DNA from: Bacilli bacterium
GTDB lineage: Bacteria; Bacillota_I; Bacilli_A; ML615J-28; CAG-698
Reading direction: 5' to 3'
DNA: 53,844 nt
NCBI GenBank assembly: GCA_918272565.1
Contig: CAKJYW010000022.1
Location: 1 to 53,844, forward strand
Position 1 is the first letter of the stretch; every line of letters begins with the position of its first letter. This document shows positions 1-39,299 of this stretch, one piece after another. The notes beneath the pieces were generated by a model. The model had not been told where the DNA came from. It saw only the letters and a list, made by a program, of their open reading frames with translations, and searched no databases. The translations under genes and the position numbers were made by a program.

Positions 1-3000
1 TGAATAGATTGTATTGAATGCTGCTTTTTCATCATCAATTAATGCATCATAAGCATCTCTTGCTGCTCTAATTGCAGCTTCGTCAGTTAATTTAACTTTT
101 GAAGCAGCTGGTAAATCAGCGATTAAATCAGCAACTGGGTCGATTACTGCAAAAAATTTCAATTCTGCAATTCTAGTTTCTAAAGCAGCGATTTCATCGT
201 AGTTGCTAACTAATGCCTTTTGACGAGCAGTCAAATTATTATAGGCTTCTTTTGCGGCTTTAACACTAGCTTCATCAGAAATTTGAACACGTTTAACAGC
301 AGGTAAAGCATCAATCATATCTTCAACGATACCAGCAGCATATTTATCTAAAGCTTCAGGTAATGCAAATAAGTCTTCTAAAATACCTTCTTCATTCCTA
401 CCACTAAAGTTACCGATAGCAGCAGTCAATACATAATATGTTGCTTTGTTAGCGATGTCTGGATTTTCTACTTCTGTATATGGATATACACCATTAGTAT
501 CAGCAATACCCCTAGTATAGTAAGTAGTGTTAGGATCTAATGCTGTAGCAGTTTGATCCATTAATTCATAGTAACCAGCAATAGCGCTAGCAGCATTAAC
601 GATTCTAGCAAGGTTATTATCACTTAAATCGTTCATCTTTAGATTTTGATTAATCAATCCTAAAGAATAGTAAGCTCGTATTAATTCATCAACTTTACCA
701 GTATAAGATAATTTATCATTGTACTTCATCAGATCATCATAAGTGGATTGATAATTGCCTAAACCGTAATTCGTAACATCTCTAGCAGATGGCAATATAG
801 AAGCAGTTTCTTTAATAGCATTAGCTAACGTAACAGTTCTAGCCATTAATTCTACTCTATCAATAGTTTGAGCTAATAATGCGTTGAAGTGAGCATCAAT
901 ACCCCAAGTGATAGTTCTATCGTCATTCTTAACATATTTGAATGACTGAGCAATATAAGCGACATCATCATTAACGTCTTCGCCGGCCCACTTATTAATC
1001 TTGTAATATAAGTCGTTAGCCCACTCAGTTTCATTAGAAAGGCCATAACCTACAACAACATATTCTTCATTTACTTTCTTGAAATATAATCCGTTAGCAA
1101 CAAATGCAGGTTCAGTTGTTCCATGAATTACTTGAACATAAGTGTTAGTAGGGTATTCTCCACCATTTAAAGTAGCAATCATAACTTTTGCAGCATTGAT
1201 TTCAACAGTTGTTTCATCAACTGTAGTAGCTTTCATGCTTAATAAATCAACAACAACTTTTAATAAATCTAATTTATGTTTAATCTTAGTGTTGATTAAA
1301 GCTTTTCCAGCATCACTTAGATCATTGTACTTCTTTAAAGTTCCACCATTAATAGAATGATAGCTATTATAAGTAACGATCTTATCCTTGTTAGATTCAG
1401 TTACTTTATCACTTAAAGCGATAATTTCATTTGCTAGATTGATAGCTGTTTCAATATAAGCTGTTTCTTTCTTAGCAAAGTTAAATTCTGCAATACCAGC
1501 AGTTGTAGCATAACCATTATCATATAATGCTTTTTGACCATCAGTCATTGAATCGTAGTTACGCTTAGCAGTAGCTAGTAATGCTTGGAATGAAGCACTT
1601 TCATAGTAAGCTTTAGCAGTAGCAGAATCTAGGTTAGCAGTAACAACGTTAGTAATATATTGATCTTTTACATTATTGAATAAACTTTCAGTTAAATCAA
1701 TAATTTCTGCTTGAGATACTAATTTGTTAGCAGCAACATTGATAACACGTTGTAATGCATTAGTAGCTCTAACAACTTCTTCAATTTGTTTATAACTTTC
1801 GTTCAGAGCATCTAATCCAGTCTTTAAACCTTCTATCTCTTCTAATTCAGTTGGACCCAAATCATTAAACGCAATAGAAACCCCATTAAAGTCAGCAAGT
1901 GTATTAAGATTATTGTATTCATCAGTAGTAATACCAGTTAATGCAGTGAAGTAATTTCTAATTACTATTACTTGATATTCATAATCACTTTCTTTATAAA
2001 AGCGAGCAACTAAACTAATATTACTATTATATGTGTATGTTCCACTTGTTACTTCTTCATCACCATAATACCAACCAAAAAATGTATATCCATCTTTTGT
2101 TGGAACTGGAAGGTTGAATGAAGAATTGTAATTAACATTAACTGTATTACTTTGTAATTGGTCTCCTCCATTTACATCTAATGTGATTGTATATGGATTT
2201 CCTGTCCATCTTGCAACTAATGTAATATTACTATTATATGTGTATGTTCCACTTGTTACTTTTTCATCTCCATAGAACCAACCATCAAATGTGTAATTAT
2301 CCTTTGTTGGAACTGGAAGATTGAATGAAGAATTGTAATTAACATTAACTAAATTACTTTGTAAAGCATCTCCGCCATTAACATCAAGTGTAATTGTATA
2401 TGGATTACCTATCCATCTTGCTTCAAGTGTAACATTTGATGTTACTTCAAATGTATTTCCAGTAATCTTCTCTTCTCCATTATACCAACCAGTAAGCATA
2501 TAATTTGTCTTTTCTGGAACAGGAAGGTTAATAACTGTACCACTAGTTACAAGTTGAGAATCAAAATCTCCTCCACCATTAGTGTTAAACACTACTTGAT
2601 ATTTTGTAGGCCATGTTGTAACTACATTATTAACATAATGCCAATAATTACCAGTTGCATTTGGTTCAGTATCACTTAAATAATAAACTGTAACCTTATT
2701 AGGAATATGGCTTAATTTATTAAACTGACTTTCATTTCCAGTGTAATAAATAGTATCAAAACTATCACAATAACTGAATGCCTCTAATCCAATTGTTGCA
2801 ATACTGCTTGGTAAAAGTAAAGTCTTTAAAGCTGTACAATATCTAAAAGCATCTGTTCCAATAGAAGTTACGCTACTAGGTATATCTAGATCGATTAATC
2901 CTGCGCATCCAACAAATGCTCCATCAGCTATTGTTATTACAGTATTAGGAATTACAGTGTTCTTACAACCTACAAGTAAGCTATTAGTTTCTTTACTAAT

Positions 3001-5652
3001 AATTGCATTAGAATTATCCCTTGAATCATAATTTGTATTATTTGCATCAACTGTGATAGCAACTAAATTAGGAGTATTAGCAAATGCTTTATCGCAAATA
3101 CTAATTACGTTACTAGGAATAATCAAACTAGTTAATCCAGTATTGCTAAATGCTTCTGCATTAATAGTAGTTAAGGATTCTGGGAATGTAACACTAGTTA
3201 AACTTGTACAATAACTAAATGCACCTAAATCAATAGTAGTTAAAGTGTCATTAAAGTTAATTGTAGTTAGACTTGTACATTTACTAAATGCATATTGACC
3301 AATTGTAGTAATACTTTCTGGTAATGTGATAGTTTCTAAACTTGTGCAATTGCTAAAAGCATTGCTTCCAAGTGAACTAACACCATTTGGTAAAACTAAA
3401 GATGTTAAAGAACTACATCCATAGAATGCACCAGCTCCAATTGATAAAACACTTGATGAAATTGTCAAATTAACTAAATTACTGCAGTTTTCAAAAGCAG
3501 ATGCATTAATCTTTTTAATAGTATTAGGAAGTATTACAGTAGTAATATTAGTGCAATTAATAAAGGCATTTCCTCCAATACTAATTACATTCTTATCTTC
3601 AATTTTACTAGGGATGTAAACTACTGCATCAGTTCCTTTAAACTTAGTGATTTCAACTGTATCACCATTAACCTGATACTCGTAATCACTTGCTTTATAG
3701 AAGTGAGCTACAAGTGTTAAATTACTTGAATAATTATATATTCCACTATCAACTCTATCACATCCATTAAACCATCCATCAAATGTGTAGTTTTCTTTTG
3801 TTGGAATAGGTAGAGTGAAAGTAGTATTAGAAACTACATTAATTGTTGAAGATTCTAATGGATCTCCTCCATTAACATCAAGAGTAACAATAAATGGTGC
3901 ACCCCATTTAGCTTTTAAAGTTACATTAGATGTAACCTTATAAGTTGTTCCCTCAATCTTTGTTTCTCCATTATACCAACCAAGGAATGTATAGTTTTCT
4001 TTAGTTGGTGTAGGTAAAGTAATAGTTGTTCCACTATTTACTGTTTGAGAAGCTATTTGATTTCCTCCATCAGTATTAAAAGTAACAGTATATTTAGTAG
4101 TGACAGTAGATGATCCTCCACCTCCTCCACCACTATTCTTTCTTTGCCATGTTGCTTTAACAGTTACATCTTCTGTTTTATTCCATGTTCCAGCTTCTAA
4201 TCTTGTCTCACCATAATACCAACCTCTAAAAGTGTATCCTTGACGAGTAGTTGTTTGTAATGTGAACTTCTGTCCATATGTTACATATTGAATGTTGTTT
4301 TCTAAATCAACACCACCATTAACATCATAGATAATCTTATAAACATTAGCTGTCCACTTAGCTTCAACACTAACATTCTTAGCTATATCCCATACACCAC
4401 TTTCAATTTTTGTTTCACCTTCAAACCATCCATTAAATGTAAAGCCAGTTCTAGTAGGTGTTGGAAGTGTGACAGTAGTGCCATAAGTAACTTCTTCGCT
4501 TGTTTTTCCTATGCTATCTCCACCATTAACATTAAATGCTAAAGTGTAAACATTAGCAGTCCATTTAGCTTCTAATGTAATATCACTAGTATAGTTATAT
4601 GCTCCATCAGTTACTTTATCATTACCTAAATACCAACCTTCAAACTTATATCCATGACGTCCTGGAGTTGGTAATGTGTAATTCTTTGTATATTTAACAT
4701 TTATTTCTTTTTCAGTAAGACTATTTGCTCCATTTTCATTTAATGTAATCTTAAATGAAGCTAGACTCCAATGAGCGACAAATGTAGCATCACTAGCAAC
4801 ACTCCATTTACTTGATACAACTTTTTCATTATCTAGATACCAACCATCAAAAACATAACCAGCTCTTGTTGGTTCTGTTAATGTAAATGCGTCATCATAT
4901 ATTACTTCTTGTTTATTATTTTCTAAATTATCTCCACCATTAACATCTAAAGTTAATGTGTATGTGTTTGGAGTAAAATGAGCTTTTAATTCTACATTTT
5001 CTGCTAATTGCCATTTACCATTATCTATTTTTTCATTTTCTAAATACCAGCCTTCAAATGTATATCCATCTTTATAAATGATAGGTAGAATAAAATCAGT
5101 ACCATATAATACTTCTTGAGGATTTACATTTTCTAAATCAAAAGAAATTATATATTTATTAGGAGTAAACTTTGCAATAAGTTCAACATCTTTATCTATA
5201 TTCCACTTGCCATCTTCAATTTTTGTATTATCTAAATACCAGCCATCAAAAGTGTATCCTTCTTTTTCTACAAAAGGCACACTAAAACTAGAGTCATATT
5301 CTATTTCTAACTCTTTAACTTCATCACCATTCTTTAAAATGACTTTATATTTATTAGCACTCCATTCTGCTTTTAAATTAATATCATTCTCTATATTAAA
5401 CACTCCGTTATCACTAAACTGTTCGCCGTTATAGAACCAGCCTAAAAAACTGTACCCAGTTCTTGATGGTACAGGAAGTGTAAAATCACTAGAGAGAGTA
5501 GCAGTTATAGATTTTGGAGAGACATCTCCTCCATTTGCATCTAAATTAATAGTGTACTCTTTATTGGCAACTGGACTATTCTTGCCAATTGTGCAACTAG
5601 TCAAAATAAATAAACTAGCAAATAAAAATAAAATAGATAATAATCTTTTCAT
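1..5652 (-). CDS. Giant InlB-repeat / BspA-LRR lipoprotein (C-terminus beyond window)
   Basis: Open frame from ATG at 5652 to the window start, at least 1884 residues. The N-terminus is a lipoprotein signal with lipobox LTSC (Cys20), so it is exported and membrane-anchored. I count nine Listeria-Bacteroides (InlB B, Flg_new) repeats at about residues 30-655, each with a GW(Y/F) core and an NGGD start, and a poly-Gly linker near residue 509. A BspA-type (LRR_5) leucine-rich block follows at about 660-985, then three more InlB repeats at about 1010-1222. A long helical region follows, ending in repeats with an A..AYxxLTxxQKALV pattern. The RBS is GGAGG just before ATG. InlB and BspA repeats are known from surface adhesins, so adhesion or matrix binding is the likely role; the ligand is unknown. 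The true C-terminus, and any anchor, are not visible. Confidence 0.9.
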   Translation of the reverse strand, partial: MKRLLSILFLFASLFILTSCTIGKNSPVANKEYTINLDANGGDVSPKSITATLSSDFTLPVPSRTGYSFLGWFYNGEQFSDNGVFNIENDINLKAEWSANKYKVILKNGDEVKELEIEYDSSFSVPFVEKEGYTFDGWYLDNTKIEDGKWNIDKDVELIAKFTPNKYIISFDLENVNPQEVLYGTDFILPIIYKDGYTFEGWYLENEKIDNGKWQLAENVELKAHFTPNTYTLTLDVNGGDNLENNKQEVIYDDAFTLTEPTRAGYVFDGWYLDNEKVVSSKWSVASDATFVAHWSLASFKITLNENGANSLTEKEINVKYTKNYTLPTPGRHGYKFEGWYLGNDKVTDGAYNYTSDITLEAKWTANVYTLAFNVNGGDSIGKTSEEVTYGTTVTLPTPTRTGFTFNGWFEGETKIESGVWDIAKNVSVEAKWTANVYKIIYDVNGGVDLENNIQYVTYGQKFTLQTTTRQGYTFRGWYYGETRLEAGTWNKTEDVTVKATWQRKNSGGGGGGSSTVTTKYTVTFNTDGGNQIASQTVNSGTTITLPTPTKENYTFLGWYNGETKIEGTTYKVTSNVTLKAKWGAPFIVTLDVNGGDPLESSTINVVSNTTFTLPIPTKENYTFDGWFNGCDRVDSGIYNYSSNLTLVAHFYKASDYEYQVNGDTVEITKFKGTDAVVYIPSKIEDKNVISIGGNAFINCTNITTVILPNTIKKINASAFENCSNLVNLTISSSVLSIGAGAFYGCSSLTSLVLPNGVSSLGSNAFSNCTSLETITLPESITTIGQYAFSKCTSLTTINFNDTLTTIDLGAFSYCTSLTSVTFPESLTTINAEAFSNTGLTSLIIPSNVISICDKAFANTPNLVAITVDANNTNYDSRDNSNAIISKETNSLLVGCKNTVIPNTVITIADGAFVGCAGLIDLDIPSSVTSIGTDAFRYCTALKTLLLPSSIATIGLEAFSYCDSFDTIYYTGNESQFNKLSHIPNKVTVYYLSDTEPNATGNYWHYVNNVVTTWPTKYQVVFNTNGGGDFDSQLVTSGTVINLPVPEKTNYMLTGWYNGEEKITGNTFEVTSNVTLEARWIGNPYTITLDVNGGDALQSNLVNVNYNSSFNLPVPTKDNYTFDGWFYGDEKVTSGTYTYNSNITLVARWTGNPYTITLDVNGGDQLQSNTVNVNYNSSFNLPVPTKDGYTFFGWYYGDEEVTSGTYTYNSNISLVARFYKESDYEYQVIVIRNYFTALTGITTDEYNNLNTLADFNGVSIAFNDLGPTELEEIEGLKTGLDALNESYKQIEEVVRATNALQRVINVAANKLVSQAEIIDLTESLFNNVKDQYITNVVTANLDSATAKAYYESASFQALLATAKRNYDSMTDGQKALYDNGYATTAGIAEFNFAKKETAYIETAINLANEIIALSDKVTESNKDKIVTYNSYHSINGGTLKKYNDLSDAGKALINTKIKHKLDLLKVVVDLLSMKATTVDETTVEINAAKVMIATLNGGEYPTNTYVQVIHGTTEPAFVANGLYFKKVNEEYVVVGYGLSNETEWANDLYYKINKWAGEDVNDDVAYIAQSFKYVKNDDRTITWGIDAHFNALLAQTIDRVELMARTVTLANAIKETASILPSARDVTNYGLGNYQSTYDDLMKYNDKLSYTGKVDELIRAYYSLGLINQNLKMNDLSDNNLARIVNAASAIAGYYELMDQTATALDPNTTYYTRGIADTNGVYPYTEVENPDIANKATYYVLTAAIGNFSGRNEEGILEDLFALPEALDKYAAGIVEDMIDALPAVKRVQISDEASVKAAKEAYNNLTARQKALVSNYDEIAALETRIAELKFFAVIDPVADLIADLPAASKVKLTDEAAIRAARDAYDALIDDEKAAFNTIYS
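2010..2423 (-). repeat. Tandem near-identical 207-bp InlB-repeat units
   Basis: Two adjacent units inside the giant lipoprotein gene are nearly identical at DNA level. The stretch starting at 2017 recurs at 2224, and the stretch at 2101 recurs at 2308; both offsets are exactly 207 bp, or 69 codons. The other InlB repeats in the gene are much more diverged, so this pair looks like a recent in-frame duplication. Confidence 0.85.
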
Positions 5653-5697
5653 TTTCGCTCCTCCATTTAGAAAAAAATAAATATACGCATCTTTTTT

Positions 5698-5726
5698 ATT
5701 ATACTTTATTATGAAATCGATTTCAA
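5698..5726 (-). promoter_or_regulatory. Sigma-A type promoter of the giant lipoprotein gene
   Basis: On the minus strand, -35 TTGAAA (5726-5721), a 17-bp spacer and a perfect -10 TATAAT (5703-5698) lie about 45 nt before the ATG at 5652. Confidence 0.75.
5712..5725. promoter_or_regulatory. Perfect palindromic cre-like operator
   Basis: TGAAATCGATTTCA is a perfect 14-bp palindrome that satisfies the CcpA cre consensus TGNAANCGNTNNCA at every fixed position. It covers most of the -35 and the spacer of the giant lipoprotein promoter, where bound CcpA or another LacI-family protein would block RNA polymerase. It could also affect the divergent gene at 5832. Confidence 0.6.
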
Positions 5727-5831
5727 TATAATAAAACACTATTTAACATTAGTTTTTAAATGATTATTTTCATTAATCTTTACTAATATTTATTTTTATG
5801 TTAAACTTTTTTTGGAAACGGGAGGAAAAGA

Positions 5832-6477: not shown

Positions 6478-6768
6478 TTAATCTTTTAGATTAAATTCAA
6501 AGCTAAAGCCAAAAGCATTACCATCATATTTATAAGTAACAGTTTCGTCTTTCTTAATTAAATATTTGTTTTCTTTATCATAATAGAAGATAGAGAAAGA
6601 AACGGTGTCACTTAAAACTTCATTGATAGTGATGAAGGCTCCTTCTACTGCTGTTGAGTGCTTCTTATTTACTTCTTCTAATGGAATAGAGTTTTCGAAA
6701 TTACCAAAACTCATCCCATAGCCATTGAAGCGCCTTATGCTTCCTTTATATTGTAACTTTAAGCCCAC
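6478..6768 (-). CDS. Small beta-rich protein, last gene of AAA-protease cassette
   Basis: 96 residues, probably from a GTG at 6768 that overlaps the end of the upstream gene by 23 nt; a shorter in-frame ATG at 6714 is possible. It has no signal peptide or membrane segment, so it is probably cytosolic. Alternating hydrophobic and polar residues predict a small beta-sandwich. The pattern around residues 48-94 (hydrophobic strand, FYYD, charged hairpin, aromatic strand) resembles the C-terminal half of the cassette's first protein (15036-15770), suggesting but not proving common origin. No known family is recognised. The overlap implies co-translation with the 142-residue protein. Confidence 0.6.
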   Translation of the reverse strand: MGLKLQYKGSIRRFNGYGMSFGNFENSIPLEEVNKKHSTAVEGAFITINEVLSDTVSFSIFYYDKENKYLIKKDETVTYKYDGNAFGFSFEFNLKD

Positions 6769-7174
6769 TCTTTAATTTCCCCCATTCGTTAACTACTATA
6801 GTGTAAAAGCCTTCCTTTATTTTTCTTTGAAAAACTAAGTCATTGTGATAAAGAGGAAATCTCTTACTTAGTGCATATCTATCAACAGTGTGCCAAGCTT
6901 CTTCTGCTGATTTTTCTAATACACTAACATAAACATAATTATCTTTAATTGCATGGATAACAAGCTCAAAGCTATTAGGAAATTCTACATGAACTGCTTT
7001 TTCTTTTCCTATTTTTTCTTTTAGGTCTTTTGTAGAAAAACTTTGTTCAAAGAATGGTTTAGTTGGATCATCTTTATAAAACTGAACTTTTATAGAAACA
7101 TCTTCACTATCCTCATATAGAAAGTTCCAACAATCAAAATACTTCTCATCCATACTTACAAATTTTTCATCCAT
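6746..7174 (-). CDS. Beta-rich hypothetical protein of AAA-protease cassette
   Basis: 142 residues starting 2 nt after the AAA-protease stop, with AAGGAG about 10 nt before the ATG at 7174; Met8 is a less likely start. There is no signal peptide. It is predicted to be mostly beta strands, with an acidic N-terminus rich in Asp and Glu. The segment around residues 70-130 (FELVIHAI, YVYVSVLEK, FYTIVV) has the same strand rhythm as the other beta-rich proteins of the cassette. No enzyme motif is visible and no family is recognised. Tight coupling to the AAA-AAA-protease gene suggests a partner, substrate receptor or regulator of that protein. Confidence 0.7.
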   Translation of the reverse strand: MDEKFVSMDEKYFDCWNFLYEDSEDVSIKVQFYKDDPTKPFFEQSFSTKDLKEKIGKEKAVHVEFPNSFELVIHAIKDNYVYVSVLEKSAEEAWHTVDRYALSKRFPLYHNDLVFQRKIKEGFYTIVVNEWGKLKSGLKVTI

Positions 7175-7176
7175 AA

Positions 7177-10100
7177 TTATTTGTTCTCCTTATATTCTTT
7201 TTCTAGCAAACTCCAAACATAATCAATTGGACGTGCATAATTAATCTCTTCAGTAATTTCAGCTCCATGTGAGATAGCTGACCCACAGAATACTCCTAAA
7301 ACCTGAGATGTTTTTTCGTCAATTAGAGGTGAACCACTATTTCCGCCTTTTGCTTGAATGTCTAAATTGATTTGAGCTAGCATCTTGCTATTCTCTTTTT
7401 GGAATGAAGTAATTTTACCTTCATTGATTGACATTTCATCAAATCTAGAAACACCAAATGGATAGCCCATAATATAAACTTTATCAAGCTTTTCGTTTAC
7501 GTTATTGCAAGGAGCTAAAACTAAATAATCAAACACTTCATCGCCACTTGTTTCAATCTTACATAAAGCTACATCGGCTTTTTCATCGATAGAAACGACT
7601 TTTGCATCGTAATTTAGATCAATATAGCGATTATGGTGGGTAATTCTACGTCTAGCCACAATTTTATCTATTCCTTTTACGCAGTGAGCGCAAGTTAAGA
7701 AATAGCCATCATTAGTAATTATAAATCCTGTTCCTTCTCCAACCCTATCACCACTCATCTTTAAAGCTAAAATGGCTTCACTCATTTCATTCTTCTTCTC
7801 ATTAAATGGTGACGCTTTAAAATCTTTCAAGTTATTTAGTAATACTTCAGGGTTAAGCTTAGGAATAGTGATTTCGCTCTTTTCGCTCTTTGATATTTCA
7901 TCAAATTCTTCTTTACTAAATACAGCTTTAATATCTTCTAAATCTAATTCCTTAGAATTGATATCTCCGCCAATTTGTCGCATACGACCAGCGTGTTTGA
8001 TTTGAAGCTTTGATAAAGACTCTCTTAGAGTTCTAACATTTGCAAAATTTGGTTTATTCCTTTGAATAGAAACAAATTTAACGAAAAGTTTTAGGTCTTC
8101 GTCATTCATCACGTAACCTTCACGCTTTAAGAATAGGCGAGCGATCTTTTCAAGTTCCTCATCGCTATAATCTGGAAATTCAAGTTCAAACTTAATACGT
8201 GATTTAAATCCAGGGTTTAAATCATATAGTTTCTTCATTTCACTAGTATAACCAGCCAAAATTACACAGAATTCACCACGTCTATCTTCCATGGCTTTAA
8301 GTAATTCCGCAATTACTTCCGGTCCAAAGTCACGTTCTCCACCATAAGCTAAAGAGTATGCTTCATCAATATATAAAACTCCACCCATCGCTTTATCGAT
8401 TATATCACGGGTGATAATAGCACTTTGTCCGATGTATTGACCTACTAAATCACGTCTAGTTACTTCTAAGAACTTGCTAGTTCCTAGGATTCCTTCTTGG
8501 CAAAGAAGTTTTCCAATAATTCTAGCTACTTCCGTTTTACCTGTACCAGGATTACCAGTAAAGGACATATGGAAGTCAACTCTTTTACCTCTATTTATAG
8601 CAAAATAGGCAATCAAATCATCTACTGTTTCTTTAATCTTTTCTAAACCAACTAATTCATCTAGTTTCTTTCTTGCTTCAGATTGATAGCCAGTCTTTTG
8701 ATCGATAAAAGCGATGTCATTTTCTAAAACGTAGACATCAACATCATCTTTGATGATCGTTTTATCATCAACAAGCTCTGTTCTAACGTTTTGAATGATA
8801 ATTACTTCTTCTAAAATAGCGATCGCAGCTGTTGCATTGATGTTATTACCATATGACTTAGATAGGAAGATAACATCAAGTAGCCTATCAAGAGCATCTT
8901 TATCAATGTAATATCCTTTTTCTTTAACTTTAATCTTTAAGATTTCCCCTAGTTCATCTCTAGTAAAATCTTTGAAATTAACTCTAAAGCGAATCTTATC
9001 TTGGAATAAATCTTTGTGATTTTCTAATATTTGATTGATATTGTATTTATTATCACACAAAATGAAGCAAGTATTGTGATCTCCTGCCATAAGGTTAGAT
9101 AAGGCTAAAAGTCCTTCTCTAACATTAGATAAATTGAGGCCTTCTAAATAATGTAGGTCGTCAATTAGAATTACTCCACCATATCCCTCATGATAAAAAT
9201 CATTCAGATTGGTTGTTGTAACGCCAGTCGTGCTATCAAACAGCTCTTTTGCACTAGTTTCACTAAAGGTGTCTCTATCAATTGCCCCATATTTAAACAA
9301 AACTTTAGCAATCAACCTACCAACAGTAGACTTACCAACTCCATTTTCTCCACTAAATGCAATATTTTTATAAATGCTTCTTGTATCATTCTTTTCAACA
9401 TAGGCTTTGATGCGCTTGAATTCCTTCTTAGCATCTTCTTGACCAATTAGATGCATCATTTGATATTCAGGATTTGTTGTATCATCAATTGCTCTATTCG
9501 GATGTTTCTTTAATTCAGCTTGCTCAAATTCCTTTTTAGCATAATAATAATCAGTCCAACCATTTCCTTCATCAAAAGAAAGTTCACTTAAATATCTAAT
9601 TCTAGCACATCTATCAGTGTCTAATACGTCTCCTGTACTTGAATCACATAAAATAACTTCTTCACCTTTAATTGTGATAATAGCAGATGATGAAAGCTTG
9701 TTACCATCTTCTTTTAAGATAGTAACAACTGTAAAGCCATCATCCTCAATTTGAACTTTTGGACCATCAAATTTATTCTTTGTAAGATTAAATACCATGT
9801 AATAATCATCAAATTGATGCATTTGATAACCACTATTGTTACCTTTTTCAAATTTAATGATCTTTCTTTGACCATTCTCATCACTAATTAGACCGATACC
9901 AGTAGCAACATCTTCCTCAAAACTAATCTGAGATAGACCTGCAAAATCAAGTAACTCTTTAATGTTTTCGTATTTTAATTCTAAAGGATAATTGATTCTC
10001 TTATCACTCTTAATAGGATTTTTAACATTAAACTCTTTAGGAACAGTTACTTCCTCATCAATAAATCCCTCATCATCGTATTTCCTAAATTTAAATAAGT

Positions 10101-10488
10101 GAGATAAGCCATCATAATAAACAGCATAACCTATTTTATCTCCAGGAAAATTATCACGATAAATTTCAAAACTTGAATCTTTTAAGCAGATATATAGAGT
10201 TGTATTAAGGTCACCTTTTTTACATAGAGTAATCCTAATATCACCATTTTCTAAAATATCAGTATATGGATAAATTATTTCTCCATTATCATATTTAGCA
10301 AACCTAGTTTTAAATTTAGCTACATTGATATTTAGTCCATTTGGCTTCTTTTCTTCATTAAATTCACCAAAATTATAAGAATCTCTCTCTTTTATATACC
10401 CAAAGAAAGGTCCTTCTGTTTTAGAATTAAAATCGCCAAAGCAATTGTCACTTATCTTTTCCCATTTCTTAGAAATATTAGTTCCCAT
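7177..10488 (-). CDS. AAA+ / AAA+ / trypsin-like protease fusion (1103 aa)
   Basis: Four parts are visible. Residues 1-330 are beta-rich, perhaps with degenerate MORN-like repeats. The first P-loop AAA+ module (345-570) has Walker A GENGVGKST (380-388) and Walker B ILIDD near 440-444. The second, of CbbX/SpoVK/EccA type (610-860), has Walker A GNPGTGKT (645-652), Walker B VLYIDEA (704-710) and an arginine finger near R764. The C-terminal trypsin/HtrA-like protease (900-1103) has an intact triad: H935 in TCAHC, D972 in ADVALC and S1051 in GNSGSP. No signal peptide or membrane segment is seen, so it is probably a cytosolic ATP-driven or ATP-gated protease. Its ATG overlaps the upstream stop as TAATG, with GGGAGG before it. 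HtrA-like proteases normally act outside the cytoplasm, so fusion to two AAA+ modules is unusual. Role unknown; conflict, defence or quality control are candidates. Confidence 0.9.
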   Translation of the reverse strand: MGTNISKKWEKISDNCFGDFNSKTEGPFFGYIKERDSYNFGEFNEEKKPNGLNINVAKFKTRFAKYDNGEIIYPYTDILENGDIRITLCKKGDLNTTLYICLKDSSFEIYRDNFPGDKIGYAVYYDGLSHLFKFRKYDDEGFIDEEVTVPKEFNVKNPIKSDKRINYPLELKYENIKELLDFAGLSQISFEEDVATGIGLISDENGQRKIIKFEKGNNSGYQMHQFDDYYMVFNLTKNKFDGPKVQIEDDGFTVVTILKEDGNKLSSSAIITIKGEEVILCDSSTGDVLDTDRCARIRYLSELSFDEGNGWTDYYYAKKEFEQAELKKHPNRAIDDTTNPEYQMMHLIGQEDAKKEFKRIKAYVEKNDTRSIYKNIAFSGENGVGKSTVGRLIAKVLFKYGAIDRDTFSETSAKELFDSTTGVTTTNLNDFYHEGYGGVILIDDLHYLEGLNLSNVREGLLALSNLMAGDHNTCFILCDNKYNINQILENHKDLFQDKIRFRVNFKDFTRDELGEILKIKVKEKGYYIDKDALDRLLDVIFLSKSYGNNINATAAIAILEEVIIIQNVRTELVDDKTIIKDDVDVYVLENDIAFIDQKTGYQSEARKKLDELVGLEKIKETVDDLIAYFAINRGKRVDFHMSFTGNPGTGKTEVARIIGKLLCQEGILGTSKFLEVTRRDLVGQYIGQSAIITRDIIDKAMGGVLYIDEAYSLAYGGERDFGPEVIAELLKAMEDRRGEFCVILAGYTSEMKKLYDLNPGFKSRIKFELEFPDYSDEELEKIARLFLKREGYVMNDEDLKLFVKFVSIQRNKPNFANVRTLRESLSKLQIKHAGRMRQIGGDINSKELDLEDIKAVFSKEEFDEISKSEKSEITIPKLNPEVLLNNLKDFKASPFNEKKNEMSEAILALKMSGDRVGEGTGFIITNDGYFLTCAHCVKGIDKIVARRRITHHNRYIDLNYDAKVVSIDEKADVALCKIETSGDEVFDYLVLAPCNNVNEKLDKVYIMGYPFGVSRFDEMSINEGKITSFQKENSKMLAQINLDIQAKGGNSGSPLIDEKTSQVLGVFCGSAISHGAEITEEINYARPIDYVWSLLEKEYKENK

Positions 10489-12740
10489 TACTTTTCCTCC
10501 CTTTGTTTTATAGATGAAAAGTAATTGAAAGCACTAATGAATAGTTTCAATCCCTTTAAATAACCTTGTGACTTAAGCAAATGGATACCCATCTCAAGTC
10601 TATTTAAATAGTCATTTGGATAAATTCTACCAAAGTACATGTAGATTGCTCCATAGACTTCAGGGTAATAACAATACTCAATGTCAATGATAACACTAAA
10701 CATAATTGGCTCTAAGTAAGATGATAGTTCCTTATTAACCCATCTATTTTCACCTAAGAAAACGTAAGTCTTTAAAGCTAAATAAGCATACATTACCCTA
10801 ATAAAGACATTCTCTTCTTCTTGGTATTTACTACTATATAATCTTACTTTTTCTTTTAGCATCCTAAAATCAGGATTTTCTTTCTTAAGTTCTCCTAAGA
10901 TTAGATCAAGTTCATTAACTACATCTTCGTTACCATTATTTAAAACAAAATCAACAATCGGACAAACATTATATTGATCTAACTCATCTTTAAAGTTACT
11001 ATTAACTAAGGCACCATTTTCATCCATCACTTCAGCAGCTAGAGTAATTAGTTCTCTTTGAAGATTATTAAACTCATCTTCTTTAAATAGATGAGCAAGG
11101 CATCCAGCTAAAGGAACAAATACTCCATAACCATCAGCTGTAGCGTTTAAAACCTTAGTTTGATAGTCATAAGCTGTATTAATGTACCTACAAACGATTC
11201 GTTTAAACATTCTTCTTGATTTTGAAGCGATTAAATATAATAAATATTTATTTGTTAGAATGTTATCAATAGATGAGTAGTTTGTAGCAGACTCGGCGAT
11301 GACTGTGGCTCTTTCAACAAATGAAAGCATGAAAGATTCTTTATCTGATATTTCTTTCTTATCAAATTCTTTGTAGCTTTCTAATGTTTTACCAAATGAA
11401 GCAATCTCTAAAGCTAACCTATCTAAAAGCACATCAAATATCGCATTTTTAACAAGGTTCTTCTTAGCTATTTTATTATTAATGCCGATATCATTTAAGT
11501 AGATATCTTTATCAACTGAATAAGTTGATTTCTTATTGTAAATATATCTAGTGATTTCTACTTTATCAAACTCTTTATAAATATAATCGATAGCATCAAC
11601 TAATCTTTTTTCATAACGACTAGTTACGTATCCTGTTAAAATCATCGCATTGGAGCCGATAAAATCTTTGATAGTTTTATCGCTCATAACTAGTCTATTA
11701 TCTTCAAGACAAGCAAAAAACTCTAGGAATGATGAAATCTCTTCTTTTTCTTTTACTTCTATTTCATCATAATTAATTAAATATTTGTTTTCTTTATTTA
11801 ATAAATATCTACCTGAATTAATAACTTCATCTAAAGTTAATCCAAAATTAAACATATAAAGGTCGATTAAGCCTTCACTAAAAATAGCTTTTCCTTTTTC
11901 TGATAACTTCTTATAGAAATCATTAAAGATATAGAATAAGATTTCTTCAGTGTTATATTTAGAAAGCATTACTTGTAAAGTGCGATTATAATCATCTATA
12001 GGGCAGTAATTAAGGATGAATTTAGCTACATAAAAATAATCATTTAGTTTTAATGTAGGAGTTGCAAGGAGTAGTAACTCATCGCTTAACTTAGCACCAC
12101 CCATTTCCATTAATTCTTTAAATAATAATTTAGGATTAGATATATCTTTTTCAAATTCAACAGTATTTAAATATTCACTTAACTGTTCTTTTTGTTGTTT
12201 ATTGTTAGTGATTAGAAAAACATGTAAGTTTTTAGGTAAAAACCTCTTATCAAACACAAAATGACGATAGAAAGTAAGTGAAAAGTCATTATCATAAGGT
12301 AAATCAATATTATTTATTAAAATGTATAATGGTTTATCTAACTCTAATGAATAAAGATCAGTCTTTAAAATACCTAATAGATTATCATAATATGTTTCTA
12401 CATCAACTTTTGCTTCACATTTAGGTGTGAAAGAGTAATCACCTTCATAATGAATATTAAATTCATCTAATTTCTCATATATCTTTTTAACAAAGAAAGG
12501 CGCAGGAAAAGATGAGGAATAACTAATATCACTAAAATCGATAAAAATCTTATTTCCTTCTTTTTTGTTTAGCGCTTCTTTAAAGAATTCATCTTCATAT
12601 GTTTTTGAATTCAAATAAACTAAAAGTGCTTCTCTTTTTAATTCTTCTAAATCAATGATTTTATCTATCTTTTTTTTCAAATAATCATTATTAGAAAAAT
12701 AAGAGCTTCTTTTTAATAATTCTTTTATTTCTATTTGCAT
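10488..12740 (-). CDS. Large STAND/AAA-like protein with degenerate P-loop
   Basis: 750 residues, no signal peptide. The N-terminal 220 residues look like a STAND/NACHT-type fold: strand KIFIDFSD followed by an SYSSS turn and a helix, then a Walker-B-like strand LYILINNID near residue 150 and a sensor-like strand LHVFLIT. No GxxGxGK[ST] Walker A is present where one would be expected, around residues 36-60, so ATP binding is probably lost. The remaining 500 residues are helical and may form a repeat scaffold. The stop overlaps the AAA-protease start (TAATG), implying coupled translation and a likely complex. Its own ribosome site is weak and it follows a hairpin, so its level may be lower than that of upstream genes. 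The fold is inferred by eye; the reading frame is certain. Confidence 0.8.
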   Translation of the reverse strand: MQIEIKELLKRSSYFSNNDYLKKKIDKIIDLEELKREALLVYLNSKTYEDEFFKEALNKKEGNKIFIDFSDISYSSSFPAPFFVKKIYEKLDEFNIHYEGDYSFTPKCEAKVDVETYYDNLLGILKTDLYSLELDKPLYILINNIDLPYDNDFSLTFYRHFVFDKRFLPKNLHVFLITNNKQQKEQLSEYLNTVEFEKDISNPKLLFKELMEMGGAKLSDELLLLATPTLKLNDYFYVAKFILNYCPIDDYNRTLQVMLSKYNTEEILFYIFNDFYKKLSEKGKAIFSEGLIDLYMFNFGLTLDEVINSGRYLLNKENKYLINYDEIEVKEKEEISSFLEFFACLEDNRLVMSDKTIKDFIGSNAMILTGYVTSRYEKRLVDAIDYIYKEFDKVEITRYIYNKKSTYSVDKDIYLNDIGINNKIAKKNLVKNAIFDVLLDRLALEIASFGKTLESYKEFDKKEISDKESFMLSFVERATVIAESATNYSSIDNILTNKYLLYLIASKSRRMFKRIVCRYINTAYDYQTKVLNATADGYGVFVPLAGCLAHLFKEDEFNNLQRELITLAAEVMDENGALVNSNFKDELDQYNVCPIVDFVLNNGNEDVVNELDLILGELKKENPDFRMLKEKVRLYSSKYQEEENVFIRVMYAYLALKTYVFLGENRWVNKELSSYLEPIMFSVIIDIEYCYYPEVYGAIYMYFGRIYPNDYLNRLEMGIHLLKSQGYLKGLKLFISAFNYFSSIKQREEK

Positions 12741-12776
12741 TTTTTATTCTTTTCTTTCTTTAGTTTTGCACTTTTT

Positions 12777-12806
12777 AAAAACTCTTCTTCATAGAAGAAG
12801 GGTTTT
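12777..12806 (-). terminator. Intra-operon attenuator-like hairpin
   Basis: Minus-strand stem AAAAC-CTTCTTC / GAAGAAG-GTTTT around a short loop runs into a T tract, between the 220-residue and 750-residue genes. It resembles an intrinsic terminator but has cassette genes on both sides, so partial termination is likely. Confidence 0.55.
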
Positions 12807-12808
12807 AA

Positions 12809-13471
12809 TTAATCAAACATAACATTTGGATTTAATAGATTTGGAGGTGTCCAAGTAATTCCTTTTTCAGCAAGGTATTCTTGTTTTAGACTCCAAGTTT
12901 CAAAGCAGCTACCCATTCCGTGATATTTTCTGTTTTTATCGATTTTCTCTTCAACCTCATCAATAACAGCTAAATATTCAGGGCTCATTTCAACAGGGTC
13001 ATTCTTTAATGTTCTTCTTGATTTCATTCTCTTTTCAAAGATTTCATCAATTTTTTCATCCTTTAGTAACCCGCTGCCTTTAACCAATTCTTTAATATCT
13101 AAGCAGTCATCATCAACAAAGAAATTACGGAAACGTAAAAGATCAGATAAAAGGCTACTTGCATCTTCCTTTATTTCTTCAATCTTATATATTTCATAAA
13201 CCTTAATCATCACTTCTAGTGCTTTCTTTAAATAGTCAGCTACAATACTCATTCTTGTGAGTGTTTTATACTCTGTAGCTAAAAACATATAGTTTTCATA
13301 GGCATAAAGAAGTGAAGCTTCCTCGTCATCAATATTACGATTAATTAACTCATCGATTTCTTTTAAATCTTTGATGTCACGGTATGTTGCTGCGGCGTAT
13401 TCGTGCTCTTTTCTTGAATTAATGTTATTAATCAATTTTTCAATTTTTTCTTGTATTAAAGCATCAAACAT
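12809..13471 (-). CDS. Helical hypothetical protein of AAA-protease cassette
   Basis: 220 residues starting at ATG 13471, which overlaps the DUF1963 stop (TAATG) with GGAGG upstream, so the two are translationally coupled. The sequence is strongly helical with many Leu, Lys and Glu. Segments around residues 40-110 suggest TPR-like or coiled-coil packing. The C-terminal 40 residues are different: aromatic and proline-rich (MGSCFETWSLKQEYL, then TWTPPNL). No signal peptide and no catalytic motif. I do not recognise a family. Coupling to the YwqG-like protein suggests a working pair. Confidence 0.75.
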   Translation of the reverse strand: MFDALIQEKIEKLINNINSRKEHEYAAATYRDIKDLKEIDELINRNIDDEEASLLYAYENYMFLATEYKTLTRMSIVADYLKKALEVMIKVYEIYKIEEIKEDASSLLSDLLRFRNFFVDDDCLDIKELVKGSGLLKDEKIDEIFEKRMKSRRTLKNDPVEMSPEYLAVIDEVEEKIDKNRKYHGMGSCFETWSLKQEYLAEKGITWTPPNLLNPNVMFD

Positions 13472-14031
13472 TATGAGAAATCCTCCACAATCTTAACATC
13501 TTTGAAATTCTTCTTGTCTTTACCAAAGAATAAATAAATCATTCCATCGAATGTTGGGAATAAGCCCATTTCATCATTATCCATTGGGTCAAGTTGGAAT
13601 AATAACTCGTCTGGTTCTTCACTATATTGCCAATCACCAGGGCAACCAAGTAGCTTGTTACCAGTGTCGCTCTCATCACATAATTCGAATTCAATTAAGA
13701 AGTCTTGTGTGAAGCTTTCAAAGTCAGGAATAGATGCATTGAAGTCTTCGATAACCTCTTCTGGATCTTCTTTAGAATACTTAACGATAGGTTTAAGATC
13801 GTAGATTCCATTTTCAGTTCCTAAGAAAAAGTACAAATAACCTGTGTGAGGTAACTTATTATCTTTATCTAAATCCTTGATATCCTCTAACTTAATTTGC
13901 ATCAAAAAAATCGCATCATCAGGTAGTTCATCCATCATACCTTTAGGAAGTGTAGGATTACCTAACATCTTAGAACAACCTAAATCGTAATCTCCAATAG
14001 CTTTTTTAGTTTTAATTTTAATTGCGTTCAT
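13471..14031 (-). CDS. YwqG-like (DUF1963) protein
   Basis: 186 residues with AAAGGAGAT before the ATG. It matches the DUF1963/YwqG pattern: KMLGNPTLPKG near the start, a strand with FLMQIKLEDI, GYLYFFLG, then LLGCPGDWQY, LLFQLD and a final GMIYLFFGKDKKNF strand. Family members are cytosolic and of unknown biochemical role; B. subtilis ywqG sits beside an LXG toxin-immunity locus. Here it sits between the 65-residue motif protein and the helical 220-residue protein, 2 nt from the first and overlapping the second. The family call is by motif; the role in the cassette is unknown. Confidence 0.8.
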   Translation of the reverse strand: MNAIKIKTKKAIGDYDLGCSKMLGNPTLPKGMMDELPDDAIFLMQIKLEDIKDLDKDNKLPHTGYLYFFLGTENGIYDLKPIVKYSKEDPEEVIEDFNASIPDFESFTQDFLIEFELCDESDTGNKLLGCPGDWQYSEEPDELLFQLDPMDNDEMGLFPTFDGMIYLFFGKDKKNFKDVKIVEDFS

Positions 14032-14033
14032 TT

Positions 14034-14231
14034 TTATCTCCTTTTATTTTTAATATCTTTTAGTGTTTTCACATCATCAAGTGGATCATTTGGTGTATAT
14101 CCATTTTGATCAGTCACATCTTTAATTGTTTTCACATCATCAAGTGGGTCTTTTTCTTTTGTTAGACTCTCCCAATCGATGTCTAGTCCTAAATCTTCAA
14201 TTTCTTTTTCTTTTTTCTTCTTTTTATCCAT
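14034..14231 (-). CDS. 65-residue protein with doubled DPLDDVKT motif
   Basis: A small, highly charged protein. It starts with a Lys/Glu-rich segment, then carries two copies of the peptide DPLDDVKT(I/L)KD about 22 residues apart, and ends in KNKRR. It has too little hydrophobic content for a stable fold, so it is probably disordered. GAGG lies before the ATG, and it sits 2 nt before the DUF1963 gene and 10 nt after the upstream gene. Two copies of one short motif suggest a tether, adaptor or protease-recognition peptide that binds two copies of a partner. That is inference; no homologue is recognised. The position between tightly packed genes supports it being a real gene. Confidence 0.7.
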   Translation of the reverse strand: MDKKKKKEKEIEDLGLDIDWESLTKEKDPLDDVKTIKDVTDQNGYTPNDPLDDVKTLKDIKNKRR

Positions 14232-14241
14232 AATAACCTCT

Positions 14242-15033
14242 TTATAAAGTTTCTTCTAAAGCATCTTCTAAATCGACATGTTCATATTCTTTTTCTTTGC
14301 CTTTAAACATCACATCAACAATTGATTTAGGATTTTTTATTATTATATTGCTATCATCGTTAACTTGAATAAAAATGTAATTATATCCACTTGTTGAAGA
14401 GTTTTCTTCATTATAACAATGTAAATAATATTTCTCATCGCTTGATAGCTTCACTCCATCAACATCCTTAAATTCATCAATTAGAATTGATGAATATTTA
14501 TATAAAGCATCTAAGAATGCTTTGTAATCATTTTCTTTTACTTCATTAAAGTTATATCTAGCGATTAAAACGTAAGGAACTCCTTCTTTTCTAAAGAATT
14601 CTAACTTAATAGGGAAGTTAGGTAAAACTGGTCTAAAACCATATTCTTTACAAAATCTCTCATATTCATTGTCTTCAACTTCTTGTTTTGTTTCTTCTTT
14701 ATTAGGATTTAAATGATCAAAAACAAGATTAACTTCTTTTTCACTCAGTGGTAGTGGATTAAAATTCCTATCAGTCTTACAAAGAAGCATAAATGATCCT
14801 ATATAATCATATCCTGAAAGGGCGCATGCTTTTTCGTTATTGACATCATCACCATTCCTATCAACAAATCCCATCAAGTGAACTCCAAGCTTATTAGATA
14901 ACTCTTGAGTTTTTGCGGTGTGGACTGTTGAAAGGGAAGAAGCGTTTAAAGCGCTATAGATATTATTAATATCCGAAAAATCAATTTCAATCTTAATTAT
15001 ATCTAAATGTCTTACTAGAATAGCATTTTCCAT
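14242..15033 (-). CDS. Hypothetical protein, weak DUF3846-like N-terminus
   Basis: 263 residues, cytosolic by sequence. The N-terminal ~105 residues (IYSALNASS, GFVDRNGDD, DYIGSFMLL, then LSEKEVN) weakly recall DUF3846, a small domain common in phage and plasmid genes, where an RNG-type turn precedes an IxG strand. A charged linker (~110-125) leads to a second alpha/beta domain with the strands YVLIARYNF and YNYIFIQVND, and the protein ends in an acidic tail. The ATG at 15033 lies 2 nt after the upstream stop. It is the second gene of the cassette. No catalytic residues can be assigned, and the DUF3846 resemblance is only a suggestion. Confidence 0.7.
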   Translation of the reverse strand: MENAILVRHLDIIKIEIDFSDINNIYSALNASSLSTVHTAKTQELSNKLGVHLMGFVDRNGDDVNNEKACALSGYDYIGSFMLLCKTDRNFNPLPLSEKEVNLVFDHLNPNKEETKQEVEDNEYERFCKEYGFRPVLPNFPIKLEFFRKEGVPYVLIARYNFNEVKENDYKAFLDALYKYSSILIDEFKDVDGVKLSSDEKYYLHCYNEENSSTSGYNYIFIQVNDDSNIIIKNPKSIVDVMFKGKEKEYEHVDLEDALEETL

Positions 15034-15035
15034 AA

Positions 15036-15770
15036 TTAGTATCCTTTTTTAATAGAAAATTTTGTACTTCCATCAATTACTAATTCTACTTCTATTGACC
15101 AATACCATGATTCATGATCATACCTAGTGGCGTATCCCCCACTCCTTGTTTCATAGTATAAAAATGTTTCATTGATTTCAAAACTATCTTTAAGTTCATT
15201 GAATTTCCCATGATTATCGCAATAATAATAGATAGATTCGATAGATATCTTAGAGCCATTAATCTTTGTAACATTTAAAGTGTATCTATTATCTATCATT
15301 AACTTTGCTTCATAAACAGTACCAATTTTAGCATTTACAGTTTCTTCTACATCACCATTTTTGAACCCTTCCCCACAAGAAGTGTACCCTTTTTCATGGA
15401 TTTGCAATTTGATATTGTTTTCATCAAAGTCAACTTCTTTTGTTTTGTAATTTAATTCAATCTTGAAATCTCGATAAACTGTTTCCCATAAATCTTTATC
15501 CCATTTACCTTTTTTATCTTCAATTATTAAAGACTTACCTTTTTCTAAGAGTAATTCCTTTTCTAAAGACCCTTCTTCACCATTAAACGAGAATTTTATG
15601 AGAATGTTTCCATCATCAAGTATCTTAATATCTCTAAATTTGGAATCTACATACAACTTATCAGATTCAAAAGAGATTTTTTTATGTATTGGATCAAATG
15701 ATCCTTGAAAAGTCTCCCCATCTGAATAAATCAGTTTTGAAGAGAGTTCGCTTACAATTGTAATTTTCAT
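15036..15770 (-). CDS. Beta-rich hypothetical protein, first gene of AAA-protease cassette
   Basis: 244 residues from an ATG with AAAGGAAC upstream. There is no signal peptide or membrane segment. It is predicted to be nearly all beta strands in two halves. The first half contains a SDGETFQGSF turn; the second (~145-244) has a strand-rich region with a YYYC stretch and an aromatic SWYWSIEVEL strand. The second half has a strand rhythm similar to the 96-residue protein that ends the cassette. There is no known family and no enzyme motif. A promoter-like -10 and a cre-like site precede it, so it probably marks the 5' end of the operon. Confidence 0.75.
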   Translation of the reverse strand: MKITIVSELSSKLIYSDGETFQGSFDPIHKKISFESDKLYVDSKFRDIKILDDGNILIKFSFNGEEGSLEKELLLEKGKSLIIEDKKGKWDKDLWETVYRDFKIELNYKTKEVDFDENNIKLQIHEKGYTSCGEGFKNGDVEETVNAKIGTVYEAKLMIDNRYTLNVTKINGSKISIESIYYYCDNHGKFNELKDSFEINETFLYYETRSGGYATRYDHESWYWSIEVELVIDGSTKFSIKKGY

Positions 15771-15812
15771 AAAGTTCCTTTCTTCTTTTATTTTTCCGGT
15801 AACAATAATAAG

Positions 15813-15829
15813 TGTATTAAACGCTTACA
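15813..15829 (-). promoter_or_regulatory. cre-like site downstream of cassette -10
   Basis: Minus-strand TGTAAGCGTTTAATACA contains 12 of 14 matches to cre (TGTAAGCGTTTAAT) and ends in an ACA half-site shifted by 3 nt. It lies between the -10 and the first ATG, where a bound repressor would block transcription. Confidence 0.35.
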
Positions 15830-15839
15830 TTTCAATATT

Positions 15840-15845
15840 ATTATA
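15840..15845 (-). promoter_or_regulatory. Probable -10 of AAA-protease cassette promoter
   Basis: A perfect minus-strand TATAAT lies about 70 nt before the ATG at 15770. The -35 position holds only TCTTTT, a poor match, so the promoter may need an activator or be weak. Confidence 0.45.
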
Positions 15846-15874
15846 ACATATAAGAAATAAATAAAAGAAAGAAA

Positions 15875-15920
15875 AATAAAAAAAAGAATTAAAGCATTCT
15901 TTTTAGCGCCTTAATTCTTT
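15875..15920 (-). terminator. Terminator after the M28 peptidase gene
   Basis: Minus-strand stem AAAGAATTAA / TTAATTCTTT with a GC-containing 18-nt loop is followed by a long T run. It separates the M28 operon from the AAA-protease cassette. Confidence 0.75.
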
Positions 15921-15928
15921 AAAAATAC

Positions 15929-36557: not shown

Positions 36558-37274
36558 TTATAACAATTCTTTAAAAACGTTGCCTAAAGAATCTTGTATA
36601 ACTAATTCAGCATAATTATCGTAACTAGTTACGTCACGATTAATAATAATTAAATGTTTGCCATTAAAATATTGAACTAATCCAGCTGCAGGGTAAACTG
36701 TTAGGCTTGTTCCTCCTATTATTAAGGTATCACATTTAGAAATATAATATAAACTCTTTTCTAAAACATTGCTATCAAGAGCTTCTTCATATAAAACAAC
36801 ATCTGGCTTAATAACTCCACCACAGTCGCATCTTGGTACACCACTTGTTTCTAATATCTTATCAAGACCAAAGAATTTATGACATTTCATGCAATAATTT
36901 CTTAAAACACTACCATGAAGCTCTAAAACATTAACGCTTCCCGCTTTTTGGTGTAGTCCATCGATGTTTTGAGTGATAACGGCTTTTAATTTACCTTCCT
37001 TTTCTAACTTAGCAAGTGCTAAATGCGTAGTATTAGGCAAAGCATCAGGATAAAGCATCTTAGAACGATAAAAATCATAAAAAAGTTCAGTATTTTCTAA
37101 AAAGAAATGATGAGACAAAATCTCTTCAGGTGGAACTTTCGCTTTCTCTTTATATAGCCCATCGCTACTACGAAAGTCAGGAATCTTACTTTCAGTAGAT
37201 ACTCCAGCCCCACCAAAGAACACGATGTTATTAGATTCCCTGATTATCTTTTTGAATTGTTCTATTTTGTTCAT
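36558..37274 (-). CDS. Sir2-family NAD-dependent protein deacylase
   Basis: 238 residues from ATG 37274, with TTGAGG about 8 nt upstream; a longer frame starting at TTG 37286 is unlikely. Motifs: FFGGAGVSTESKIPDFRS (GAGxS, PDFRS), TQNIDGLHQKAG, LHGSV, zinc ligands CMKCHKFF and CDCGG, and IGGTSLTVYPAA. It removes acyl groups from lysine using NAD in the cytosol. The gene overlaps the upstream racemase-like gene by 44 nt, a larger overlap than others here. Zinc ligands C-x2-C ... C-x-C are present. Confidence 0.92.
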   Translation of the reverse strand: MNKIEQFKKIIRESNNIVFFGGAGVSTESKIPDFRSSDGLYKEKAKVPPEEILSHHFFLENTELFYDFYRSKMLYPDALPNTTHLALAKLEKEGKLKAVITQNIDGLHQKAGSVNVLELHGSVLRNYCMKCHKFFGLDKILETSGVPRCDCGGVIKPDVVLYEEALDSNVLEKSLYYISKCDTLIIGGTSLTVYPAAGLVQYFNGKHLIIINRDVTSYDNYAELVIQDSLGNVFKELL

Positions 37275-38049: not shown

Positions 38050-38072
38050 CTTATTACCTTCTTTATAACATT

Positions 38073-38101
38073 ATTTTATCATACAAGGCCTTTTATTTCA
38101 A
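38073..38101 (-). promoter_or_regulatory. Promoter of the racemase-like gene
   Basis: Minus-strand -35 TTGAAA (38101-38096), 17-bp spacer and -10 TAAAAT (38078-38073), with an extended TGA before the -10. Confidence 0.7.
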
Positions 38102-38112
38102 ATGCTCTAACT

Positions 38113-38140
38113 AAAAAAGAAGCAAAATCAATTTGCTTCT
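38113..38140 (-). terminator. Terminator overlapping the isomerase-like stop codon
   Basis: Minus-strand stem AGAAGCAAA / TTTGCTTCT (38140-38132, 38126-38118) with a 5-nt loop is followed by six T. One arm contains the last codons of the isomerase-like gene. Confidence 0.85.
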
Positions 38141-39291: not shown

Positions 39292-39299
39292 ATTAATTC

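Follow-up and report, generated by a model that had tools for sequence, protein, structure and literature searches.

Single-chain AAA+ proteases are few, and the familiar bacterial ones are FtsH and Lon; the protease of FtsH is a zinc metallopeptidase. The protease of Lon uses a Ser-Lys dyad (PMC2605481). The SpoVK/CbbX/EccA clade of AAA+ proteins was defined in a 2023 preprint by Delerue et al. (PMC10659427), which reports N-terminal beta-helix, beta-prism and TPR domains in it and describes SpoVK, EccA and CbbX members as dedicated chaperones, several of them in envelope biogenesis or secretion. The same survey saw no sign that members of this clade are fused to or associated with peptidases, an absence that is a survey observation and not a strict definition. 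Trypsin-like peptidases occur in the iSTAND/MoxR/vWA ternary conflict systems (Kaur et al. 2020, PMC7159879), and trypsin-like proteases activate nucleases in Hachiman and Avs (PMC12799240).

Within the window, the whole stretch of 53,844 nucleotides that was analysed, we found nine closely spaced minus-strand ORFs (g1 to g9, 6478-15770) arranged around a large AAA+-AAA+-protease, g7. Like FtsH and Lon, g7 carries an AAA+ motor and a protease on one polypeptide, but its protease is a trypsin-fold Ser-His-Asp enzyme of the HtrA type placed on a CbbX-type tandem AAA. It shares the protease fold and the His-Asp-Ser triad with the HtrA/Deg proteases (DegP, DegS, HTRA1), whereas a tandem AAA+ is attached to it, no Pfam match to a PDZ domain was obtained, and no transmembrane segment or signal peptide was found (maximum KD19 1.48); given the lack of transmembrane segments, g7 is predicted to be cytosolic. 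Known members of the SpoVK/CbbX/EccA clade are without peptidase fusion, whereas g7 and three homologues carry a trypsin-fold domain. Since the published survey found no such fusions, g7 is an exception to the clade, and the presence of a CbbX-clade motor and an HtrA-type protease on one chain contradicts the published generalisation. What holds up is narrower than the initial annotation had claimed: a protease fusion in a clade reported without them, together with a four-gene core shared by two species.

Among proteins without a protease, the closest architecture to g7 is encoded on the Ligilactobacillus salivarius plasmid NZ_CP062072.1 (L048:2033-4849), where a 938-aa protein with a beta-rich part and a tandem SpoVK-type AAA-AAA is 34% identical to g7 over 479 aa. 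A beta-rich N-terminus ahead of a tandem AAA is not new. The Ligilactobacillus gene adjoins large genes of no known kind and one encoding a zinc-finger protein, and no significant similarity to the partner proteins of g7 was found in this locus. The expectation that the cassette would match no named system was borne out.

Organization and conservation of the nine-gene cassette

The order, strand and spacing of the nine genes agree with the initial annotation. The genes are separated by gaps of 2, 10, 2, 68 and 2 nt or overlap by 1, 1 and 23 nt, and a purine-rich, ribosome-binding-like stretch lies 5′ of every start (nine of nine). The first gene of the run, g1 (15036-15770), recognised by its ORF and ribosome-binding site, encodes a beta-rich protein of 244 aa, and is followed by g2 (14242-15033, 263 aa) and g3 (14034-14231), which encodes a charged 65-aa peptide with a doubled DPLDDVKTxKD motif. 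The next genes are g4 (13471-14031), encoding a YwqG/DUF1963 protein of the TYPP superfamily, and g5 (12809-13471), encoding a helical protein of 220 aa with a conserved C-terminal tail (...EKxIxWxxPxxLNPxVMFD). The gene g6 (10488-12740) encodes a protein of 750 aa in which a putative P-loop-less STAND/AAA-like core (residues ~35-360) precedes a long helical C-terminus, and g7 (7177-10488) encodes the 1103-aa protein in which an HtrA-type serine protease follows a beta-rich N-terminus and two AAA modules. The run ends with two genes for beta-rich proteins, g8 (6746-7174, 142 aa) and g9 (6478-6768, 96 aa), the latter with a GTG start and responsible for the 23-nt overlap with g8. No family was recognised for g1, g2, g6, g8 and g9; g5 has the conserved tail only, and g3 has a marginal PHROG match. 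Sequence inspection, unscored, of the minus strand 5′ of g1 (15771-15928) revealed a hairpin resembling a terminator of the peptidase gene upstream, followed by a TATAAT-like promoter stretch.

In a congener, the second species of the genus (G038, assembly 61% complete), the gene order is repeated on a contig of 3.9 kb, which holds the end of g4, then g5 and g6 in full, and then the part of g7 that encodes its first 192 aa. The identities are about 67% for g4, 57% for g5, about 50% for g6 over its full length and 47% for g7, for which the comparison covers neither the AAA nor the protease part, as the contig ends inside g4 and g7. With both ends falling within genes, nothing follows from the lack of the remaining cassette genes on this contig. 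The one-base g4/g5 overlap is kept. Substitutions between the two species in g4-g7 are most frequent at third codon positions, then at first, then at second positions, and judging from this comparison the four genes are under purifying selection. This was the only other g4-g7 locus found, and the recurrence of the order g4-g5-g6-g7 in it upholds the claim of a real multi-gene unit: g4-g7 are a four-gene core in two species. Because this order is kept in the second species and substitution is third-position-biased, the nine-gene run is not a chance ORF array. The 68-nt g5/g6 gap (12741-12808, minus strand) had been said to hold an attenuator-like hairpin; a hairpin is present (about -10.6 kcal/mol), but a conserved attenuator is not supported, the gap in the second species being 14 nt long and without a hairpin.

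The genes outside this core have a different standing. No Pfam, NCBIfam or PADLOC match was obtained for g1, which was not found outside the source locus in 43 genomes of the order and 395 of the class, and no relatives of g2, g3, g8 and g9 were detected elsewhere in the genome sets searched. The protein encoded by g2, previously considered DUF3846-like, gave no DUF3846 match up to E=5, and the PHROG match of g3 is weak (3.9e-4 over 21 residues). A common origin of the small beta-rich proteins was rejected, as BLAST and hhalign comparisons were negative. As no relatives were found, operon packing is the one argument for including g1, g2, g3, g8 and g9, and the membership of g1-g3 and g8-g9 in the system is unproven.

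Domain architecture of g7

The protein g7 consists of an N-terminus (1-345), AAA1 (~346-573), AAA2 (~606-850) and the HtrA-type protease (~905-1103). Pfam matches (AAA 2.5e-22, Trypsin_2 2.5e-20), profile matches and motifs all support the fusion of two AAA modules to a trypsin with intact AAA motifs and an intact catalytic triad, as first proposed. The profile matches are to SpoVK (3.1e-85), CbbX (2.7e-79), EccA (1.2e-64) and DegP/HtrA (2.3e-16), none of which reaches the equivalog cut-off, and sequence matches in the PDB are to CbbX (8e-56) and to Deg/HtrA. Walker A motifs are located at 380-388 and 645-652, and Walker B motifs at 438-445 and 704-710. In the protease, the motifs TCAHC (932-936), ADVA (~971-974) and GNSGS (1049-1053) supply the triad H935, D972 and S1051, which is invariant in all four aligned AAA-HtrA homologues.

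The two AAA modules are related to each other: aligned as a pair, they are 23% identical over 208 aa (E 6e-17), and both match the SpoVK/CbbX/EccA models, AAA2 by far the best (3e-85). All motor motifs are present in AAA2, including the signature of the clade: the sensor-1 GY within AGY (745-747), the NPG..SR motif as NPGFKSR (758-764) and the sensor-2 Arg in NFANVR (814-819). By its sequence AAA2 clearly belongs to the SpoVK/CbbX/EccA clade. In AAA1 the Walker A motif (GENGVGKST) is intact, Walker B ends in DD and not DE, sensor-1 is without GY, and Lys occupies the arginine-finger position; on these motifs AAA1 is a degenerate relative of the clade.

The AF2 model of g7 is of low confidence (mean pLDDT 42, with about 50-75 in the protease part). 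Foldseek searches with this model retrieved HTRA1, DegS and DegP (E about 1e-13, with a target TM of up to 0.82) as well as CbbX (4e-13), and the N-terminus is mostly beta to about residue 280 in the same low-confidence model. Given that homologues in a sister family bear MORN repeats (PF02493, 1.7e-10) and align weakly to this region, the N-terminus is probably a decayed MORN-type domain.

The partner proteins g4, g5 and g6

The assignment of g4 to YwqG/DUF1963 was confirmed by PF09234 (E=1.8e-8, 35.4 bits against a gathering cut-off of 23), and a DUF1963 protein in G011, a genome of the sister family, is 42% identical to g4. DUF1963 and its eukaryotic relatives have been unified as TYPP domains, for which binding of extended peptides was suggested and a chaperone-like role proposed (PMC4275035). 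By analogy, g4 is predicted to be a chaperone-like peptide binder. In G011 and G012, a 461-aa protein ending in a g5-type tail (W.L...Y..EK..I.W..P...NP.VMFD) is followed by a DUF1963 gene (L024:552-2537, L025:10070-12055). These pairs are located on contigs other than those of the AAA-protease, so in these genomes the pairing of g4 with g5 does not depend on g7.

The protein encoded by g6 gave no profile match, and its AF2 model, like that of g7, is of low confidence (mean pLDDT 41-42 for the two models). The elements predicted in this model are H20-43, H50-58, E63-68, H80-93, H114-130, E138-143 and E172-177, followed by helices and a winged-helix-like hairpin near 344-351. Their order follows STAND/AAA proteins, with a degenerate segment at the place expected for the P-loop. 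Within residues 121-180, the blocks "LYILI..IDLPYD" and "LHVFL.T" are 77-80% identical to the second species, against about 50% overall, and a second, near-invariant conservation peak lies at 691-720 in the helical C-terminus. The best Foldseek matches, non-significant, were Orc-type AAA subunits and Avs4. The description of g6 as STAND-like without Walker A is weakly supported: no P-loop is present, and the STAND-likeness draws on element order and weak Foldseek matches, with no profile match. With moderate confidence, we interpret g6 as a putative nucleotide-dead STAND/AAA scaffold.

Distribution of g7 and genomic neighbourhood

Among 43 genomes of the order (E<=1e-50), g7-like proteins occur besides the source genome only in G011, G012 and G013, which belong to one genus of a sister family. 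The homologue there is a shorter, single-AAA MORN-AAA-HtrA protein (881 aa in G011; the G013 copy ends at the contig end). None of g1-g6, g8 and g9 was found beside its gene in any of the three genomes. A gene for a sigma-70-type factor lies near this standalone gene in all three (L007:9532-10047, L008:6320-6832, L009:15469-15984), and an ABC transporter flanks it on the other side in G011 and G012. The supposed tie between the AAA-protease and its partners therefore applies in part: the partners are linked to g7 in both carrier species of the genus, whereas the three sister-family homologues stand alone, so that partners are not obligatory for this protease type.

Wider searches gave no further g7-like protein among 395 genomes of the class (E<=1e-75, strict), 392 of the phylum (profile, 1e-90, strict) and 225 of the phylum (lid-linker-protease profile, 1e-12, not strict). 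No plasmid or phage record covered 80% of AAA2 plus protease, and no relatives were present in viral contigs. A scan of 85k genome contigs matched only an ordinary, membrane-anchored HtrA, from Desulfamplus, which was rejected as a g7-type fusion; as the scan used a weak single-sequence query, the AAA-protease fusion may occur elsewhere. The presence of g7 is patchy, since it is absent from the sister species G039 and G040.

The source genome (1.69 Mb, 47 contigs) is 97% complete. The window has 31.7% G+C, and the composition of the cassette, including GC3, is host-like. The cassette sits between a giant surface lipoprotein gene (1-5739, minus strand, running off the window), whose product combines InlB-type beta repeats with LRR_5-like ones, and a peptidase/oligopeptide-transport cluster. 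This one lipoprotein gene explains why the left flank seems poor in closed ORFs. An rRNA or structured-RNA neighbour was rejected, as Rfam gave no match and the left flank is the lipoprotein ORF. A mobile origin was likewise rejected given the host-like GC3, the lack of viral relatives and of plasmid or phage records at 80% coverage, and the absence of a tRNA.

Proposed mechanism and alternative roles

In biochemical terms, we put at about even odds the description of the cassette as an ATP-regulated, selective cytosolic serine-protease machine. We infer that g7 would form a hexameric ring in which AAA2, with all catalytic motifs present, serves as the motor, and AAA1, with its Walker B E-to-D change and lost arginine finger, may be a ring that binds nucleotide and serves assembly or regulation. 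The MORN-derived N-terminus and the putatively nucleotide-dead g6 may recruit or gate substrates, and the peptide-binding TYPP chaperone g4 would act together with g5, the tailed adaptor. Once triggered, the ring would remodel a few target proteins, which the protease would then cleave; phage proteins, toxins or damaged envelope proteins are candidates for target and trigger. Since CbbX assembles as hexamers and HtrA proteases as trimers, the six protease domains of a g7 ring could be grouped into two trimers. Since known members of the AAA clade act on dedicated clients, selective, triggered proteolysis would be likelier than bulk degradation. Given that the pairing is reported absent from the motor family and that the g7 gene lies behind the same three partners in a sister species, the cassette may encode a protease system that is regulated by ATP and has so far gone unstudied. 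It would offer a compact, testable case of how the cytosol can harbour a trypsin-fold protease without harm until ATP activates it. More tentatively, and with our confidence tilting against it, it may represent an unrecognised AAA+ protease class without described counterpart, with a tandem SpoVK/CbbX ring, a cytosolic HtrA-type protease, gating by g6 and a g4-g5 chaperone/adaptor.

As to biological role, a conflict (anti-phage or anti-element) system paralleling the iSTAND/MoxR-vWA systems is possible, if rather doubtful. Here g6 would sense the invader, the AAA chaperone would set the threshold, the protease would activate or kill, and the orphans would be variable modules. The combination of an inactive STAND-like partner (g6, on weak evidence) with an AAA chaperone as well as a trypsin-like peptidase matches the make-up described for such systems (PMC7159879), whereas no MoxR-clade AAA or vWA is encoded by the nine genes, and the trypsin is fused to the AAA and not, as there, to the iSTAND. 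The action of trypsin-like proteases in Avs and Hachiman (PMC12799240), the lineage-specific orphan partners and the patchy spread (g7 in 4 of 43 order genomes at the strict threshold, g6 in one other) fit this role; against it, the cassette has neither a tRNA nor atypical composition, and no recognisable toxic effector besides the protease itself, no nuclease family being recognised among the nine genes. Proximity to known defence genes, which had been put forward as a check, was not found among ten other window proteins tested, and a known defence system was rejected, as PADLOC returned generic AAA/trypsin scores only and no system match at meaningful scores. A defence role, if true, would add a proteolytic design that resembles those of the iSTAND/MoxR and Avs/Hachiman protease systems without being the same.

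We regard as unlikely a role in cell-envelope or secretion quality control, in which g7, like SpoVK and EccA, would serve one envelope pathway and cleave surface or exported proteins that had been misassembled, ahead of their export, with MORN-type repeats giving membrane placement: the envelope and secretion roles of several clade chaperones (PMC10659427), the flanking lipoprotein and transport genes and the sigma-70-type factor gene close to the sister-family homologue speak for it, but those flanking neighbours are known beside the cassette in the source genome alone, a housekeeping factor would not usually share its operon with small orphan proteins, and the two sister species are without g7. 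A T7SS/EccA context was rejected, since the 97%-complete source genome has no WXG100 or T7SS.

Two further observations were made. With a composite, approximate query, a g5-like tail motif was seen on the Parabacteroides plasmid NZ_OY725790.1 (59553-59855; L033:6809-7111), amid small hypothetical genes; as a lead only, this suggests that the tail is an unnamed C-terminal module of wide occurrence. Elsewhere in the window (37231-40094), a 387-aa gene of no known kind is flanked by two racemase-like genes, and its relatives lie in a conserved cluster in G036 and G037.
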